Part shown: positions 11,967 through 19,029 of the stretch, piece by piece
Layout: the number at the start of each line of letters is the position of its first letter
How positions within the stretch are numbered: position 1 is the stretch's first letter
Made by a program: the position numbers and the translations under genes
NCBI GenBank assembly: GCA_017398545.1
Contig: JAFQFT010000040.1
Coordinates: 1-39,054, forward strand
DNA: 39,054 nt
Direction of reading: 5' to 3'
Source of the DNA: Bacilli bacterium
Lineage (GTDB): Bacteria; Bacillota_I; Bacilli_A; ML615J-28; CAG-313
Notes under the pieces: model-generated
What the model was told of the DNA's origin: nothing
Database searches by the model: none
The model's input: the letters and a program-made list of their open reading frames with translations, nothing else

Positions 11967-12140
11967 TATTTAATTCTCTATGAGAAATAAAAGTAATTTT
12001 TTTAAACATAACATTTTAAGTTTGTTTATTCTTTAATATTTATGTTTGTAACGTTAATTCTTTTTTTCTACAAATATTTTTAGTTTTAACTTATTCATAG
12101 AATATATTCTAGATATGTTTGCGACATAATATGTACAAAT

Positions 12141-12160
12141 AAGTCACCAATTGGTGACTT
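12141..12160 (-). terminator. Terminator after prfA
   Basis: Perfect 20-base palindrome, AAGTCACCAATTGGTGACTT, seven bases beyond the prfA stop, followed by ATTTGT on the minus strand and ATTTTATT on the plus strand. It closes the gdpP-rplI-dnaB-prfA operon. Confidence 0.75.
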
Positions 12161-12166
12161 ATTTTA

Positions 12167-13237
12167 TTAGTTTTCTTCGCTTGCAGAAAGTGCACGTTTT
12201 TGTTCGAATGCAATTAAAGCTTCAATTACACTATCTAGTTTACCTTCCATAACTCTATCTAATTGTTGAATTGTAAATCCGATTCTGTGGTCTGTAAGTC
12301 TATTTTGTGGATAGTTGTAAGTTCTAATTTTTTCACTTCTATCACCATGTCCAATCTTAGATTGTCTTTCAGCACCTTCTGCTGCTTCTTTTTCTTGAAG
12401 CATATGATCATAAAGTCTTGCACGAAGAACTTTTAAAGCACTTGCTTTATTTTCATGTTGACTCTTACCATCTTGACAACTTACTACAATACCTGTTGGA
12501 ATATGTGTTACACGAATTGCAGATTTAGTAGTATTAACACATTGTCCGCCAGGACCAGATGCACAGAATGTATCAATTCTTACATCATTCATATCAAGTT
12601 CTACTTCTAATTCTTCTGCCTCTGGCATTACAAGTACTGTTGCAGTTGATGTATGGATACGACCAGCAGATTCTGTTGATGGAACTCTTTGTACACGGTG
12701 TGATCCCGATTCATATTTTAAATATGAATAAACTGAATCACCTTTAATCATAAATCCAATATAGCTAAAGCCACCAGCTTCACATTGTTCTGAATCCATT
12801 AGTTCAATTTTCCAACCACGTGATTCTGCATATTTAGAATACATTCTAAATAAGTCTCCCGCAAAGATATTACCTTCATCACCGCCAGCAGCTCCTCTGA
12901 TTTCAACAATAACGTTCTTTTCATCATTAGGATCTTTAGGGATTAAAAGAATTTTAATTTCTTCAATAATTTTTTCAATTCTCTCCTCAGATGAAACAAG
13001 TTCAATTTCAGCCATTTCTCTTAAGTCTGGATCTGAATCTTTGCTCATTTCTTTTAAGTCTTCAATGTCTCTTTCTAATTGTATAAGTTCTTTATATTTA
13101 TTAACTACTGCTTCTAAGCCTCTTTGTTCTTTAGAAAGTTCAGTAAGTTTTTTAATATCTGACACTATACTTGGATCAGAAAGCATTTCTGTTATTTGAT
13201 TGTATCTTGCACAAATAACTTCTAAACGGTCTTTCAT
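12167..13237 (-). CDS. prfA: Peptide chain release factor 1
   Basis: A 356-residue release factor that reads UAA and UAG and releases the finished protein from the ribosome. PxT is visible as PST (186-188), the anticodon-like tripeptide of RF1. The catalytic GGQ is at 230-232 in ASGPGGQCVNTT, followed by the usual ARLYD and NYPQNRLTDHR segments. Length matches Bacillus RF1. Its modifying enzyme gene prmC, normally next to it, is at 1891-2739. It lies 10 bases after dnaB and has GGAG before the ATG, so it belongs to the gdpP-rplI-dnaB operon. Confidence 0.97.
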   Translation of the reverse strand: MKDRLEVICARYNQITEMLSDPSIVSDIKKLTELSKEQRGLEAVVNKYKELIQLERDIEDLKEMSKDSDPDLREMAEIELVSSEERIEKIIEEIKILLIPKDPNDEKNVIVEIRGAAGGDEGNIFAGDLFRMYSKYAESRGWKIELMDSEQCEAGGFSYIGFMIKGDSVYSYLKYESGSHRVQRVPSTESAGRIHTSTATVLVMPEAEELEVELDMNDVRIDTFCASGPGGQCVNTTKSAIRVTHIPTGIVVSCQDGKSQHENKASALKVLRARLYDHMLQEKEAAEGAERQSKIGHGDRSEKIRTYNYPQNRLTDHRIGFTIQQLDRVMEGKLDSVIEALIAFEQKRALSASEEN

Positions 13238-13247
13238 GTTATTCTCC

Positions 13248-14720
13248 TTAATTGTTATTATTATTACCGTTTAAACGGCGCATTCCTTGAGCCTTTTTTC
13301 GTTTTCCTATTGGTTTACGGAACTCTTTTTGTTCTGTAAATCTACATAAATGTCCATAGAAATGATAGTCGAAATCTTGTAATGGCCCTTGACGGTTTTT
13401 AGCTATTGAAATAATTACTTCAAGCATTTCTTTCTTAGATTTGCTTTCTCTTTGTAATTGTTCTTCTTTTAGCTTTTCATTTAATTGATCAGCCACATCT
13501 TGATCTTCAACATCTTTTCTACGATAAATAAAGAATACGATATCGGCATCTTGTTCAATACTTCCTGATTCTCTTAAGTCAGCAAGTTGTGGTGTTTTAT
13601 TTTCACGATCTTCTACACCACGTGATAATTGTGATAATGCAAGAATTGGAACTTGAAGTTCTTGAGCAAGTGTTTTTAATTGACGTGAAATTTTACTTAC
13701 TTCTTCTTGACGATTACCTCTTGAATTTTCTACTGTAATTAATTGCAAGTAGTCAATTACCACAAAATCAAGTTTTCCAGCATTTTTTAATTGACGACAT
13801 TTTGTTCTTATATCGGCAATATTTGATGATGGTGAAACATCAAAATATAATTTTTGTTTTGCAAGATCTTCTTTAGCAAGACTTAATAATAATAATTCAT
13901 CATTATTTAAGTTACCACTTCTAATCTTACCTAAATCTACACCAGCTTGATATGAATATATTCTCATCATTAATTGTTCAATACTCATTTCTAGTGAGAA
14001 AAATGCAACGTGAGCATCATTATTCTTAGCAACTTGTAATGCAAGATTAATTGCGTAAGATGATTTACCTACTGCAGGACGTGCTGCAAGAATCATTAAA
14101 TCACCTTTTTGGAAACCAAGTGTTGCTTTATTAAGATTAGGATACCCAGTATCTAGCCCAATTATTTCTTGATCTTTACCAACATATGAATTAATTTTCT
14201 CAAATACTTCTTCAGCAGCTTCAGTTAATGTCATAAATTCACTAGTTCGACGAAGCTTAATTACTTCCATAATATTAGATTCAACTTTATCTAACATATC
14301 ATTAAGTTCATAACGATGATTTAAAATATCATCAGATAAGCCTTGCATCTTATGAAGTAATTTTCTTTCAATTGCTTTTTCTTCTACAATTTCAATATAT
14401 AATTTAACTGATGCGATTGAAGGAACAGAGTCAATGATTTCAACTAGATAATTACTAATATTAGGAACATCATTATAATTTAAGCGTTTTAATTCTTCAA
14501 CAACAGATAATACATCTATTTGATTACCACTATTTCTTAAATTAACCATTGCACGATAAATCATTACATGGCGTGGTTCATAAAAATCAGTATCAGCAAG
14601 TTTTCCAATTAACCCATCAATAATTTTATTATCAATAAAAATACTACCTAAAACATATACTTCTGCTTCAGTATTAAATGGGACTGAACGATTGTATACT
14701 ACCTCTTTTTTCTTATTCAT
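13248..14720 (-). CDS. dnaB: Replicative DNA helicase DnaB
   Basis: A 490-residue hexameric 5'-3' helicase of the replisome (called DnaC in Bacillus). The N-terminal DnaB domain (about 12-115), linker helix and RecA-like ATPase are complete. Walker A is ARPAVGKSS (213-221), FFSLEMS follows, and Walker B is VVIDYLQLI. LSQLSRGVE and DLRESGSIEQDAD are also present. The C-terminus has a charged insertion near 415-430 and ends with a run of asparagines after RRLNG, an unusual low-complexity tail. It has AAGGAGAG before the ATG and lies 32 bases after rplI, the common rplI-dnaB pairing. Confidence 0.97.
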   Translation of the reverse strand: MNKKKEVVYNRSVPFNTEAEVYVLGSIFIDNKIIDGLIGKLADTDFYEPRHVMIYRAMVNLRNSGNQIDVLSVVEELKRLNYNDVPNISNYLVEIIDSVPSIASVKLYIEIVEEKAIERKLLHKMQGLSDDILNHRYELNDMLDKVESNIMEVIKLRRTSEFMTLTEAAEEVFEKINSYVGKDQEIIGLDTGYPNLNKATLGFQKGDLMILAARPAVGKSSYAINLALQVAKNNDAHVAFFSLEMSIEQLMMRIYSYQAGVDLGKIRSGNLNNDELLLLSLAKEDLAKQKLYFDVSPSSNIADIRTKCRQLKNAGKLDFVVIDYLQLITVENSRGNRQEEVSKISRQLKTLAQELQVPILALSQLSRGVEDRENKTPQLADLRESGSIEQDADIVFFIYRRKDVEDQDVADQLNEKLKEEQLQRESKSKKEMLEVIISIAKNRQGPLQDFDYHFYGHLCRFTEQKEFRKPIGKRKKAQGMRRLNGNNNNN

Positions 14721-14752: not shown

Positions 14753-15196
14753 TTATTTTGTAGAAACAATAATATTAATTGTTGCAATAACTTCTTTATG
14801 TAATTGTACTTTAGCAGTATAATCACCAAGTGCAGTTACTAATGCTGTAAATGTAATTTTACGTTTATCAATTTTTGCATTAATTGCTTTTTCTACAGCT
14901 TCCGCGATATGTTTTGTTGTTACAGTACCTAGTACATGACCATCTGCTGCAACTTTAACAATAATTTTAACAACTGTACTTTCAATTTTTTGTTTTAAAT
15001 CTTTCATTTCTTGTAAATGAAGAGCTTCTTTTTCAGCTTCAAGTGCTTTTTGCACTTCTAATTCTTTCATGTTTCCATCACTAGCTACTTTTGCTAAACC
15101 ACTTTTAACTAGGAAATTAGCATATCCAGCTTGGAATTCTTTTACTTCACCTTTTTTGCCTTTGCCTTTTACATCAGCAGTTAATATTACTTTCAT
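14753..15196 (-). CDS. rplI: 50S ribosomal protein L9
   Basis: A 147-residue two-domain ribosomal protein that binds 23S rRNA. The N-terminal domain has [18 protein letters not shown] and [13 protein letters not shown] long central helix (about 42-75) is followed by the C-terminal domain with [14 protein letters not shown] and DKRKITF. Length and motifs are normal, so this is the functional L9. It starts 17 bases after the gdpP gene, whose product ends in a second, more divergent L9-like sequence. This arrangement suggests duplication and fusion. AGAGGTAA precedes the ATG. Confidence 0.97.
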
Positions 15197-15213
15197 TATA
15201 AATTACCTCTTTC

Positions 15214-17703
15214 TTATTTAGAAGGTTTTTCAACAATATGAAGTGTCACAGTAGCATAAATATCATTGCCTAAGTTTACTTGTGCTTCATATAAACCTAG
15301 TGCAACTACTTTATCATTAAATGTAATCTTACGACGATCAAATTTCTTACCAATTGCTTTTTCTAATGCACTAGCAATAGTTTTAGGATTAACTATTTCT
15401 AAAATGTGACCATTATCATCTGTTTCAACATAAATTTTTAAAGGTTCTTTTTCAATTACTTTTTTAATTTCATATAGTTCTTGTAATTGTCTAGCAGCTT
15501 CTTGAGCTTCTTCTTGTTTTTCTTGTTCAATCATACGAATTGCATCTGTTGTTGCTTCAATAGCAAGACCACTAGAAATTAGATTGTTTGCTTGTTCAAT
15601 AGAAACTTCAAGTAATTCGCCTTTACGACCTTTATTTCTAACATCTTCTTGTAAAATAATTTTCTTAAATTCTTCTTCTTTTAATACTTCATCAATTGCA
15701 GCTTTAAGACGTTTTTCTGCAATATCCATATTAGTGATATTTAATTCACATGCAGCAGCAGTTAAGTGTCCACCACCACCAAGTTTTTCCATTAAAACTT
15801 GACAGTTTACTTTACCTAAACTTCTTGCAGAAATACGAATTTTCTTATTAGTACTAAAACCACATGTAACAGCTAAAATAAAGCCTTCAATTGATAATAA
15901 TTCATCAGATACTTTAGCAAGTGTAGCAGCTTCAAGTAGAGTATCATCTGATTGTACTGCAATCGCAACATTACCACGATATACTTCTATTTCACTAATA
16001 AATTTATTTCTTGTTAATTTTTCTGATTTCTTTTCTTTTAAGTATTCCTTAACTCTACCCATACTTGCTTGTTTCTTAGCAAGTAAAGCCGCAATTTCAA
16101 ATGTCATATTAGATGAGCGATATACAAAGTTATTTGTATCAACAACTATACCAAGTAACATCCATGTTGCTTCACTATCTGAAATATTAAGTTCATATTC
16201 CGAAAATTCTAATAAAGTAAAGATTACTTCTACACTAGATGAAGCAGCAGGTTCAGAATAATAATATGTTGGATTTGGAATTGTTCCATCATCATTTTTA
16301 CGGTGATGGTCTATAATACCAATTTTCTTAAATACTGATAATTGTTTATCATTTAATAATACTTGTTTTTTTGATTGACAGTCAGAAACCATAAGTAGGC
16401 TCTTTTCATCAGCCATTTCAGCTGCTTTATCAGGCGTAACAAAAGATTTTAATAATACTTTATGATATTTTTTAACATCTTCATATACTTTTCTAACAGT
16501 AGCATCAATACTAGTTTCATCAAATATAATATAAACTTTTTTACCAAGTGCAATAGCTAAATTATACATTGCAAGAGTTGCACCAAATGAATCTGCATCT
16601 TGCCATTTATGTCCACAACAGAAAACTGTACCAGCACTCTTAATTAAAGTTTCTAATTCTTGGTATTTATATCTAAGTTGAACTTTAACTTCTTTTCTAG
16701 TTGGATCAGTTTTAGCACCATAAAATCTTGTAGTACCTTTAACTAATACAACAGCTTGGTCACCACCACGGTTAAGTGCAAGTACTAATTGATCTTCGGC
16801 TAAATCAGATAATTCTTTAATATGTAAATCTTCACATGCAATACCAATACTAAGTGTAACATGAACAGCTTTAGTTGTTTTTAAGATTAACTTAATTTCA
16901 TCAAGAATTGAGAAATTATCTTCCATCATCTTAACTAATTGTGAATAATTAGTCATTAACATAAACTTAGAATCTGAGAATGCTCTTACATATGCATCAA
17001 ATTTATCAGACCATTTAACAATAGCAGTTGTAATCTTACCTTGACATTCACTTTTATCTTGAACGTCTAAATCAGATAATGCTTCTTCTAAGTTATCAAC
17101 ATTAATATACCCTACCGCAACAGTACGATTTGTATATTGATTTTTTAAATCAACAAAAGCAGTTATTTCAGTTAAATAAACAATTCTAATACTTTGAACA
17201 TATATAATTTGATAAATCTTTTTAAATAATTCAATTTCACTAGTAATTACATCATCTTCAACTTTTTCTTCTTCAATATCTTTAATAAACTCAAAAATCT
17301 TACTATTAGCAATATCTTTTAATTCTTTTTCTTTATGATTAATCATTAACATCTTTTGTACAATTGGATTACTCCATTTAACACGATATGCTTTATCAAG
17401 AACTAAAACACCAATAGGTAAATCTTTAAATGCAGTCTCACCTGCACCTTTTACTTTATATGAAATTGTATTCCAAAGTTCTAATCTATTCTCTAAAGTT
17501 TCAATATATAAGTGATTTTTACGATTAGATAACGATACAATTACTGCAATAATTAAAGAAGATAATGCACCACAAATAACATAAAAAGAAATATCACTAA
17601 ATACTTTATTACCTTGATTAATAAATAATAAGCCAAGCGTAACACTTGCAAGTAACATTGCGATACCTAAACATATAATTGATATATTATTTTTTCTTTT
17701 CAT
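15214..17703 (-). CDS. gdpP: GdpP-type c-di-AMP phosphodiesterase fused to an L9-like domain
   Basis: An 829-residue membrane protein (Bacillus GdpP is about 660). In order it has two membrane helices (about 5-28 and 36-58), a PAS domain (about 75-180) and a degenerate GGDEF domain (about 190-325). A DHH phosphodiesterase follows with GHKWQDADSFGA (His365, Asp369, Asp371), IIDHHRKND and IVVDTNN, then DHHA1 with GGGGH (642-646). It hydrolyses c-di-AMP, the potassium and wall-stress second messenger. Residues about 680-826 align along their length with L9: KIILQEDVRNKGRKGEL, a charged helix, then FDRRKITF. ATG 17703 is preferred, six bases after AAGGTG. Confidence 0.93.
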   Translation of the reverse strand: MKRKNNISIICLGIAMLLASVTLGLLFINQGNKVFSDISFYVICGALSSLIIAVIVSLSNRKNHLYIETLENRLELWNTISYKVKGAGETAFKDLPIGVLVLDKAYRVKWSNPIVQKMLMINHKEKELKDIANSKIFEFIKDIEEEKVEDDVITSEIELFKKIYQIIYVQSIRIVYLTEITAFVDLKNQYTNRTVAVGYINVDNLEEALSDLDVQDKSECQGKITTAIVKWSDKFDAYVRAFSDSKFMLMTNYSQLVKMMEDNFSILDEIKLILKTTKAVHVTLSIGIACEDLHIKELSDLAEDQLVLALNRGGDQAVVLVKGTTRFYGAKTDPTRKEVKVQLRYKYQELETLIKSAGTVFCCGHKWQDADSFGATLAMYNLAIALGKKVYIIFDETSIDATVRKVYEDVKKYHKVLLKSFVTPDKAAEMADEKSLLMVSDCQSKKQVLLNDKQLSVFKKIGIIDHHRKNDDGTIPNPTYYYSEPAASSSVEVIFTLLEFSEYELNISDSEATWMLLGIVVDTNNFVYRSSNMTFEIAALLAKKQASMGRVKEYLKEKKSEKLTRNKFISEIEVYRGNVAIAVQSDDTLLEAATLAKVSDELLSIEGFILAVTCGFSTNKKIRISARSLGKVNCQVLMEKLGGGGHLTAAACELNITNMDIAEKRLKAAIDEVLKEEEFKKIILQEDVRNKGRKGELLEVSIEQANNLISSGLAIEATTDAIRMIEQEKQEEAQEAARQLQELYEIKKVIEKEPLKIYVETDDNGHILEIVNPKTIASALEKAIGKKFDRRKITFNDKVVALGLYEAQVNLGNDIYATVTLHIVEKPSK

Positions 17704-17732
17704 AATAATCACCTTCCATAGTAAGTATATTT

Positions 17733-17761
17733 ATTATACCACATTTCAAAATTTTTTTCAA
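17733..17761 (-). promoter_or_regulatory. Promoter of the gdpP-rplI-dnaB-prfA operon
   Basis: -35 TTGAAA (complement of 17756-17761), 17-base spacer, and an extended -10 TGGTATAAT with the hexamer at 17733-17738. It lies about 30 bases upstream of the gdpP start. Confidence 0.75.
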
Positions 17762-17818: not shown

Positions 17819-17846
17819 CTTGACTCTGACTAACATCAGAATCAAG
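17819..17846 (-). terminator. Terminator of the signal peptidase/fibre cluster
   Basis: An eleven-pair stem, CTTGATTCTGA with TCAGAGTCAAG on the minus strand with one G-U pair, then TTTTTTC. It overlaps the last codons of the gene ending at 17842. Confidence 0.85.
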
Positions 17847-18387
17847 CTTGATTATCTAATTTTTTATTTTTTTCTTTTTCTTTAAAATAATTTTCTAAAT
17901 AATTAAACCCTTCTATAATAAAGAAACCTATAATTAAAATAGAAATAATTCCCATTGGATTAGTTACAAAATTACGAATATTACCATAACCATGCCAAAC
18001 AGTAACAACCTTACCAATAATACAAGATACATCAAAAGGTTCATCATCAGCATTGTTAGTTTCTGTATTAATACCACGTGTAGTAATAATATTACCTTCT
18101 ATTTTAACAATCTTATGTGTTGTAGAAGTTTTTTCTCCTTCTTTAATGTATGTAACAGTCATACCAACTTCATATTCACTAGGATCTAATTTTTTAACAA
18201 CAATTAAATCACCTTTAGTAAGTTCAGGATACATACTATAAGATTCTACTTCAAAAAAAGATAAACCAAATACACTAGTATAATCAGTTTTACTAAACAA
18301 TGAACTAACTAAAAATACTCCTAAAAAAGCAATTATAGTTACTAATAAGCCTGAATAAACATTTCTAATTATTCTAACTATTTTCAT
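17842..18387 (-). CDS. Signal peptidase I, S26B (SipW-like) type, copy 1
   Basis: A 181-residue membrane protease that removes signal peptides outside the membrane. An N-terminal membrane helix (about 12-31) precedes the nucleophile in VESYSMYPELTKGDLIVV. The general base is histidine (STTHKIVKI), not lysine. This is the Ser/His ER-type arrangement of SipW rather than ordinary bacterial SipS. A second helix (about 141-160) and a lysine-rich tail end it. It is the last gene of the cluster with two other S26B peptidases and two likely substrates. It ends in TGA, which supports the standard genetic code. The ribosome binding site (AAGGGG) is far from the ATG, about 14 bases. Confidence 0.85.
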   Translation of the reverse strand: MKIVRIIRNVYSGLLVTIIAFLGVFLVSSLFSKTDYTSVFGLSFFEVESYSMYPELTKGDLIVVKKLDPSEYEVGMTVTYIKEGEKTSTTHKIVKIEGNIITTRGINTETNNADDEPFDVSCIIGKVVTVWHGYGNIRNFVTNPMGIISILIIGFFIIEGFNYLENYFKEKEKNKKLDNQA

Positions 18388-18429
18388 TTTAATTCACTTA
18401 TTTCCCCTTTAAATAAATTATATATAACT

Positions 18430-19002
18430 TTATTCTATTGATTTTACTTCTTTCTTTAATCTTTCAATTTCTTCTTTAATCGAATCTATTTCGTTATTTT
18501 CTTCTTTTTTCTCATTTTTATACGACAATATAAGTAAGAAAATAGCTAACGAAGTAATTACAACAAGCACAATCGGATTCTTAATTATTTTTAAAACAAG
18601 ACCTAAATGAGGAATAATATCAATAACCTCACCATTAATAGTTTTAATATTAATAGGGGTATCTTCACCATCATTATTATCACCAGCAGTAATCACAGTT
18701 TCACCATCAATAGAAATGATTCTATGAACTACAAGCATATTACCAGTTTGATAAACAACAATATCATTAACTTCATAACTATTAGTTTTTTCAACAACAA
18801 GTAAGTCATTAACACTAATTGTAGGTTCCATACTACCAGTTAATACAACCGCAATTGTTTTATTAAAAGGCATAACAAGACGATTACCTGAAACGCGTCT
18901 TGCGTTGATGGTATAAAAAGTTAACCCAAAAACTAAACTTATAACCAAAAATATCATTATTCTAAATACATATTTAATTATTCTCTTTAGTTTTACTTTC
19001 AT
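18430..19002 (-). CDS. Signal peptidase I, S26B (SipW-like) type, copy 2
   Basis: A 190-residue membrane protease. An N-terminal helix (about 9-28) leads to the nucleophile motif VVLTGSMEPTISVNDLLVV, the histidine base LVVHRIISI and TAGDNNDGED, all in SipW order. A second helix (about 138-157) is followed by a coiled-coil-like tail rich in Glu and Lys. It is the closest of the three copies to classical SipW, which processes TasA-type fibre proteins. ATG 19002 is preferred because AGGTGGG lies just upstream. It starts 27 bases after the membrane-anchored protein, so the genes are cotranscribed. Confidence 0.88.
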   Translation of the reverse strand: MKVKLKRIIKYVFRIMIFLVISLVFGLTFYTINARRVSGNRLVMPFNKTIAVVLTGSMEPTISVNDLLVVEKTNSYEVNDIVVYQTGNMLVVHRIISIDGETVITAGDNNDGEDTPINIKTINGEVIDIIPHLGLVLKIIKNPIVLVVITSLAIFLLILSYKNEKKEENNEIDSIKEEIERLKKEVKSIE

Positions 19003-19029
19003 CTTGCCCACCTAAAAACTGAAAAATAA

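Follow-up and report, generated by a model that had tools for sequence, protein, structure and literature searches.

The locus studied here raises the question of why the gene for a c-di-AMP phosphodiesterase should end in a ribosomal protein L9 domain when a separate L9 gene is found immediately downstream. This arrangement is present in a 39,054 nt stretch of DNA from a Bacilli bacterium (contig JAFQFT010000040.1; the entire stretch is referred to here as the window); the genome is a draft, 88% complete with 4% contamination, as are most of the genomes of its relatives. We consider it quite likely that the locus reflects an ancient fusion, an rplI start nested in the fused gene, a later escape by tandem duplication, and a fused tail that is still constrained. 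According to this scenario, the gdpP stop codon would have been lost in an ancestor of at least three orders, making gdpP continuous with the adjacent rplI, as the GdpP tree and gene order suggest. The start codon and Shine-Dalgarno sequence of rplI would have remained functional inside the longer gene, and their conservation suggests that one mRNA would give both a membrane-bound GdpP-L9 and, by internal initiation, a soluble ribosomal L9. In the window's genus, tree and synteny point to a tandem duplication of L9, and the copy lying downstream, which is preceded by a Shine-Dalgarno sequence of its own, would now serve as ribosomal L9; relieved of this duty, the fused copy would have lost conserved bL9 residues as well as its start codon and Shine-Dalgarno sequence, surviving as a constrained accessory tail of GdpP.

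The fusion gene (gdpP-L9'; minus strand, 15214..17712, with the stop codon at 15214-15216) encodes 832 amino acids and was identified by its open reading frame, Pfam domains and catalytic residues. The GdpP domain order is complete, with four Pfam models scoring over their cut-offs, i.e., PAS_GdpP (PF21370; residues 87-183, 17164..17454; E = 1e-11), the degenerate GGDEF domain GGDEF_GdpP (PF24898; residues 203-328, 16729..17106; E = 2.5e-29), the DHH phosphodiesterase domain (PF01368; residues 363-522, 16147..16626; E = 1e-17) and DHHA1 (PF02272; residues 593-675, 15688..15936; E = 4e-9), all on the minus strand. The DHH/DHHA1 catalytic motif set (HxxxDxD, D, DHH, D and GGGxH) is present, and the corresponding residues (H368, D372, D374, D444, D468-H469-H470, D525 and G646-G647-G648-H649) are invariant among 52 fusions, including that of the window. 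The fusion thus apparently represents a c-di-AMP phosphodiesterase with an intact-looking active site. A promoter-like site, TTGAAA-17-TATAAT with an extended -10, is located upstream of the gene (17733..17761, minus strand; consensus match only). Further upstream (17842-19011, minus strand), two adjacent open reading frames of 181 and 193 amino acids resemble, by eye, tandem SipW-type signal peptidases.

The last part of the protein (residues 683-832; 15217..15666, minus strand) is a complete L9-like domain, as had been recognized from the sequence, with an N-domain, a long helix and a C-domain. Ribosomal_L9_N (PF01281; residues 684-726, E = 4e-9) and Ribosomal_L9_C (PF03948; residues 747-828, E = 5e-12) both scored over their cut-offs, and residues 684-828 matched the L9 model TIGR00158 at 77 bits (cut-off 58.6). 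The nearest solved structure is that of L9 (1div), which matched the tail over its full length (E = 1.6e-22); the resemblance to L9 is thus not due to chance. The sequence-only reading had aligned L9 with the tail from the first strand to the motif DRRKITF; the homology itself held, but it reaches the C-terminus rather than ending at this motif. An AlphaFold2 model built from the 52-sequence alignment (mean pLDDT 87; pTM 0.46, so that the placement of the domains relative to each other is unsure) also predicted an L9-like layout of the tail, with a small N-domain, a helix at residues 722-755 and a C-domain (pLDDT about 80-90), as well as two N-terminal helices (residues 2-31 and 36-97) that are hydrophobic by eye.

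The free rplI gene (14753..15196, minus strand) encodes a bL9 of 147 amino acids that scored 110.7 bits against TIGR00158 and keeps M1, G24 and G90. Its Shine-Dalgarno sequence, AGAGGT (15205..15210, minus strand), was read directly from the sequence and gives a duplex of -7.1 kcal/mol. The gap between the fusion stop codon and the free rplI gene (15197-15213) is 17 bp, which agrees with the original description of a separate, normal L9 gene 17 bases downstream. The run continues on the minus strand with dnaB (replicative helicase; 13248..14720), next in a gdpP-rplI-dnaB order, and ends with prfA (peptide chain release factor 1; 12167..13237), both names being inferred from sequence; just past the prfA stop codon, a perfect 12-bp inverted repeat (12137-12164) has a T-rich tail on the plus strand and may represent a terminator usable from either side. 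That the gdpP stop codon was removed by an assembly error, as absence of the fusion from relatives would have suggested, was rejected, since the arrangement is common to three genomes of the window's genus (G000, G012 and G013); the counterparts in G012 and G013 are 85% and 50% identical, respectively, and dnaB homologues are found at the equivalent place in both.

In contrast to the free bL9, the fused domain of the window has K, E and E in place of bL9 M1, G24 and G90, and among the three fused copies of the genus G24 is replaced by E, E and H, and G90 by E, E and T. G24 is 100% conserved in both the genes in which the fusion is the only L9 (hereafter, fused-only) and the free L9 genes, and G90 is 97% conserved in the fused-only set. 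No residue-level account of how the L9 N-domain contacts rRNA was found in the literature, so the loss of conserved residues is to be read here in terms of conservation. The replacement of these two glycines speaks against an ordinary bL9 binding mode for the tail in the window organism and makes docking in the normal bL9 site look less likely than in fused-only relatives; the ribosome-sensing role proposed for the tail from the sequence is likewise less likely in the window's genus than in those relatives.

These replacements of M1, G24 and G90 could also indicate that the tail of the window is a decaying remnant without any role, in which no stop codon has yet arisen. Consistent with such decay, dN/dS between G000 and G012 (estimated by NG86; several fused-only control pairs were left out as saturated at synonymous sites) is 0.33 for the fused tail (0.20-0.53), approximately twice as high as for GdpP (0.15) and free L9 (0.16) of these two genomes. 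However, a ratio of 0.33 is still well below 1, the three species show no stop codon or frameshift in the tail, and structure prediction gave it an L9-like fold with good confidence. Moreover, in an independent pair of genomes from another order that also carry both a fused and a free L9 (G116 and G467), dN/dS for the fused tail is 0.115 (0.06-0.19), no looser than for its neighbours. We thus regard a tail without a role as rather doubtful. Judging from these ratios, the fused tail is under purifying selection after the loss of its ribosomal duty, more tightly so in G116 and G467 than in the window's genus. As its present function, we would first consider a structural or regulatory contribution to GdpP.

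To place the fusion in time, we considered its distribution among the Bacilli. An L9 match was found in 39 of 43 genomes of the window's order, and in 36 of these 39 the fusion, with an open frame of 812-848 codons, is the sole L9 match; the exceptions are the three genomes of the window's genus, each with a fused and a free L9. The same holds for two further orders, with 153 and 83 matching genomes, respectively, of which almost all carry the fusion and no second L9. Overall, across three orders of Bacilli nearly all of about 270 sampled genomes have the fusion, usually as their only L9. In other families of Bacilli, L9 is free and GdpP is shorter; frames of ordinary GdpP comprise about 640-700 codons in most free-L9 genomes, and the window fusion is longer by approx. 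150 residues. In a GdpP tree with 60 rows, a single change accounts for the fused state (branch support 64, i.e., modest support for a single origin), and the neighbour of the fused genes is a family with free L9 (f4), with which the three fused clades form a polytomy. A single origin of the fusion is therefore weakly supported as the simplest reading. On the evidence of its distribution and tree, the fusion is ancient and was already present in an ancestor of at least three Bacilli orders.

The arrangement that preceded the fusion may still be visible in genomes with free L9, as gdpP and rplI adjoin or overlap in many Bacilli. In one genome of family f4 (G044), gdpP and rplI share a frame that is interrupted by a single TAA, and a Shine-Dalgarno sequence is already present in the gdpP end; in other free-L9 genomes, rplI and gdpP overlap by up to 23 nt. 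Arrangements of either type represent a plausible pre-fusion state. A scan of genome contigs with the full window protein yielded a single close relative, and a search of plasmids found only ordinary gdpP-rplI pairs. Among the relatives of the window's genus is a Bacilli MAG recovered from water-deer rectum.

Several genomes in this survey deserve separate mention. Two members of the window's genus (G011 and G014) gave no L9, gdpP or dnaB match; although one of these assemblies is called 97% complete, we rejected the idea that these organisms lack L9, since dnaB is missing too and the region is thus absent from the assemblies. Odd-length L9 frames in G401 and G435 were considered as split genes and rejected, as the frames are cut by contig ends; L9 frames in G433 and G449 are open at the contig start. 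In family f7, an L9 match lies in a 397-codon frame (G169:C2:68555-68686 and G222:C4:18421-18552) and gdpP is a separate 687-codon open reading frame, which is possibly another L9 fusion or extension. On a single contig, one reduced genome carries gdpP-L9 twice, the two fusions having the same L9_N score and frame length (G428:C1:328029-328166 and C1:454421-454558), representing either a duplication or an assembly repeat. A fragmented genome with 6% contamination has, in addition to the fusion, a second L9 of 80.4 bits in a 222-codon frame (G512:C172:661-795), perhaps on a foreign contig.

If the fusion is the only source of L9 in these organisms, the rplI start may have been retained inside the longer gene. 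All 90 fused-only genes have a start codon at L9 position 1 (84 ATG, 5 GTG and 1 TTG), although GTG represents only 5-16% of the Val codons in the five genes concerned and TTG 20% of the Leu codons in its gene. Upstream of this codon, a Shine-Dalgarno sequence buried in gdpP gives a duplex of -4 kcal/mol or stronger in 90/90 fused-only genes, as compared to 8.6% of 1702 other internal ATGs. The mean anti-Shine-Dalgarno duplex is -9.0 kcal/mol for the ATG set, compared to -1.2 for the 1702 other internal ATGs and -7.8 for free rplI genes. AGGAGG occurs in 33 of the 90 upstream intervals, whereas the remaining 220 kb of the fused-only genes contain it only 8 times, and the start region is more often unpaired (0.62) than other internal ATGs (0.43).

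We compared the observed duplexes with synonymous codon shuffles, which preserve both the protein and the codon usage of the gene. With one gene per genus (53 genes), the observed mean was -9.19 kcal/mol as compared to -5.98 in the shuffles (z = -11; 0 of 500 as strong). A value of -6 kcal/mol is also reached by about half of the shuffles, because the linker residues (G, E and K) favour AGGAGG-like codons. The start codon is likewise present in eighteen further fused-only genes, some of them truncated at contig ends; in one, the ATG is located a codon earlier. The only counter-cases to the pattern are four fused-only L9 genes (L198, L200, L201 and L205) with a weak or absent Shine-Dalgarno sequence at the nested ATG (-0.9 to -2.8 kcal/mol), all from one genus (g134) of reduced, AT-rich genomes of 0.5-0.8 Mb. 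Save for these four, start codon and Shine-Dalgarno sequence are conserved beyond coding needs in fused-only relatives. As both signals appear to be kept under selection acting on the DNA, we infer that internal initiation at the nested rplI is most likely the source of soluble L9 in fused-only species.

Alternatively, L9 could be freed from the fusion by proteolysis, or full-length GdpP-L9 could itself sit on the ribosome, with the internal start as a relic. The continuous open reading frame and the short, variable linker between DHHA1 and L9 are compatible with either possibility. A relic would, however, be expected to decay, yet the start is kept in every fused-only gene and varies only among start codons, its Shine-Dalgarno sequence exceeds that of synonymous shuffles, and in the first set of genes both signals fail only where a free rplI is present. 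We thus consider this alternative improbable, and favour internal initiation.

The exceptional genomes with two copies of L9 provide a further view of the nested start. In the window's genus, the three free and three fused L9s form sister clades in the L9 tree (97/89), nested among fused L9s, which together with the gene order shows a tandem duplication of the L9 part within the genus. The internal initiation site has been lost from the fused gene of the window (15664..15690, minus strand), where AAG replaces the start codon and the Shine-Dalgarno core is missing; L9 position 1 in the three fused copies of the genus is AAG, AAG and ACT. The free and fused L9s of G116 are also sisters (97/84). 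Here, the fused copies of G116 and G467 keep the ATG but have no Shine-Dalgarno sequence (-1.5, as compared to -7.9 for the free copy) and have Asn at G24. According to the tree, the L9 duplication and internal-site loss in the G116 and G467 lineage are independent of those in the window's genus. These data are suggestive of a pattern, within the genomes compared, in which genomes with the fusion as sole L9 retain the internal site, whereas both lineages that have a free copy have lost it; the link is based on n = 2 independent duplication events and carries no statistic.

The same tree bears on the origin of the two copies. The sequence-only reading held that a local, partial duplication of rplI together with loss of the gdpP stop codon had created the fusion as a new ribosome-sensing phosphodiesterase, an explanation suggested by the fusion and free rplI lying side by side and by gdpP and rplI being neighbours or overlapping in many Bacilli. 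This order of events did not hold, and we consider it very unlikely: the fusion is usually the sole L9 across the window's order and two more, the free L9 of the genus nests within fused L9s, and the conserved bL9 residues were lost by the fused rather than the free copy. The trees thus already contradict this origin and indicate that the fusion is ancestral and the free rplI the newcomer. Replacement of the nested L9 by a horizontally acquired free rplI, as the confinement of the free gene to the window's genus within the order might suggest, is hardly credible, given that this gene is sister to the fused L9 of the same genus and lies between gdpP and dnaB, directly downstream of the fusion, where a tandem duplicate is expected.

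In our reading, rplI became part of the end of gdpP early in the history of a large group of gut bacteria and kept its own start site; the window organism represents one of two lineages, among those sampled, in which the L9 part was copied out again as a separate gene. The data favour an entire ribosomal-protein gene that is nested in frame in a signalling gene and would have been kept expressible across three orders, and the loss of the internal site in both independent lineages with a free copy represents a natural test. Where only the long open reading frame is annotated, the nested rplI would be overlooked and a separate L9 recorded as absent from these genomes. As an unlikely conjecture, a single gene might give two forms of bL9, a soluble one made from the nested start and one anchored to the membrane as GdpP-bL9, that compete for one 50S site, which would tie c-di-AMP breakdown to bL9-free or membrane-tethered ribosomes; duplication in the window's genus and the G116 lineage would then have split the two jobs and left a phosphodiesterase with a dedicated, altered, L9-like sensor domain. 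The constrained tails after duplication provide two lineages for asking whether the L9 domain serves GdpP, and a direct test of a link between c-di-AMP turnover and the ribosome.

In the open-access literature, outside of which most subscription journals lie, we found no paper on a GdpP-L9 fusion, a nested rplI start or a duplication escape. The fusion itself is already known by a database name, whereas the nested start and the duplication escape are, as far as we found, undescribed. NCBIfam NF011110/PRK14538 ("putative bifunctional signaling protein/50S ribosomal protein L9") has an architecture equal to that of the window fusion, bearing out the earlier suspicion that the fusion may be known in relatives. 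Window residues 38-830 align to positions 49-836 of 838 of this model at 523 bits, below the curated cut-off of 707; as 17 other fusions likewise score <707, the model looks narrow. The family name is silent on a nested start and, unlike the protein that this name describes, the window protein has a degenerate L9 part with a free rplI beside it.

Domain order and catalytic residues are shared with GdpP (YybT) of the Bacillus subtilis type, but ordinary GdpP ends after DHHA1, where the window fusion adds its approx. 150 residues; in Bacillus, gdpP and rplI are located in one operon (PMC4568413). bL9 is a nonessential 23S rRNA-binding protein associated with frame maintenance and polysome spacing (reviewed in PMC10931766). 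The window tail has the N-domain, long helix and C-domain of bL9 (TIGR00158), but it is fused to the C-terminus of a membrane enzyme, with G24 and G90 replaced. A parallel for one gene giving two proteins from an in-frame second start is Shigella VirF (PMC5101355), although its short form is made from a leaderless mRNA rather than from a nested Shine-Dalgarno sequence. In fused-only genes, by comparison, the short product would be an entire ribosomal protein with an evolutionary history of its own, and the nested site is conserved across three orders.
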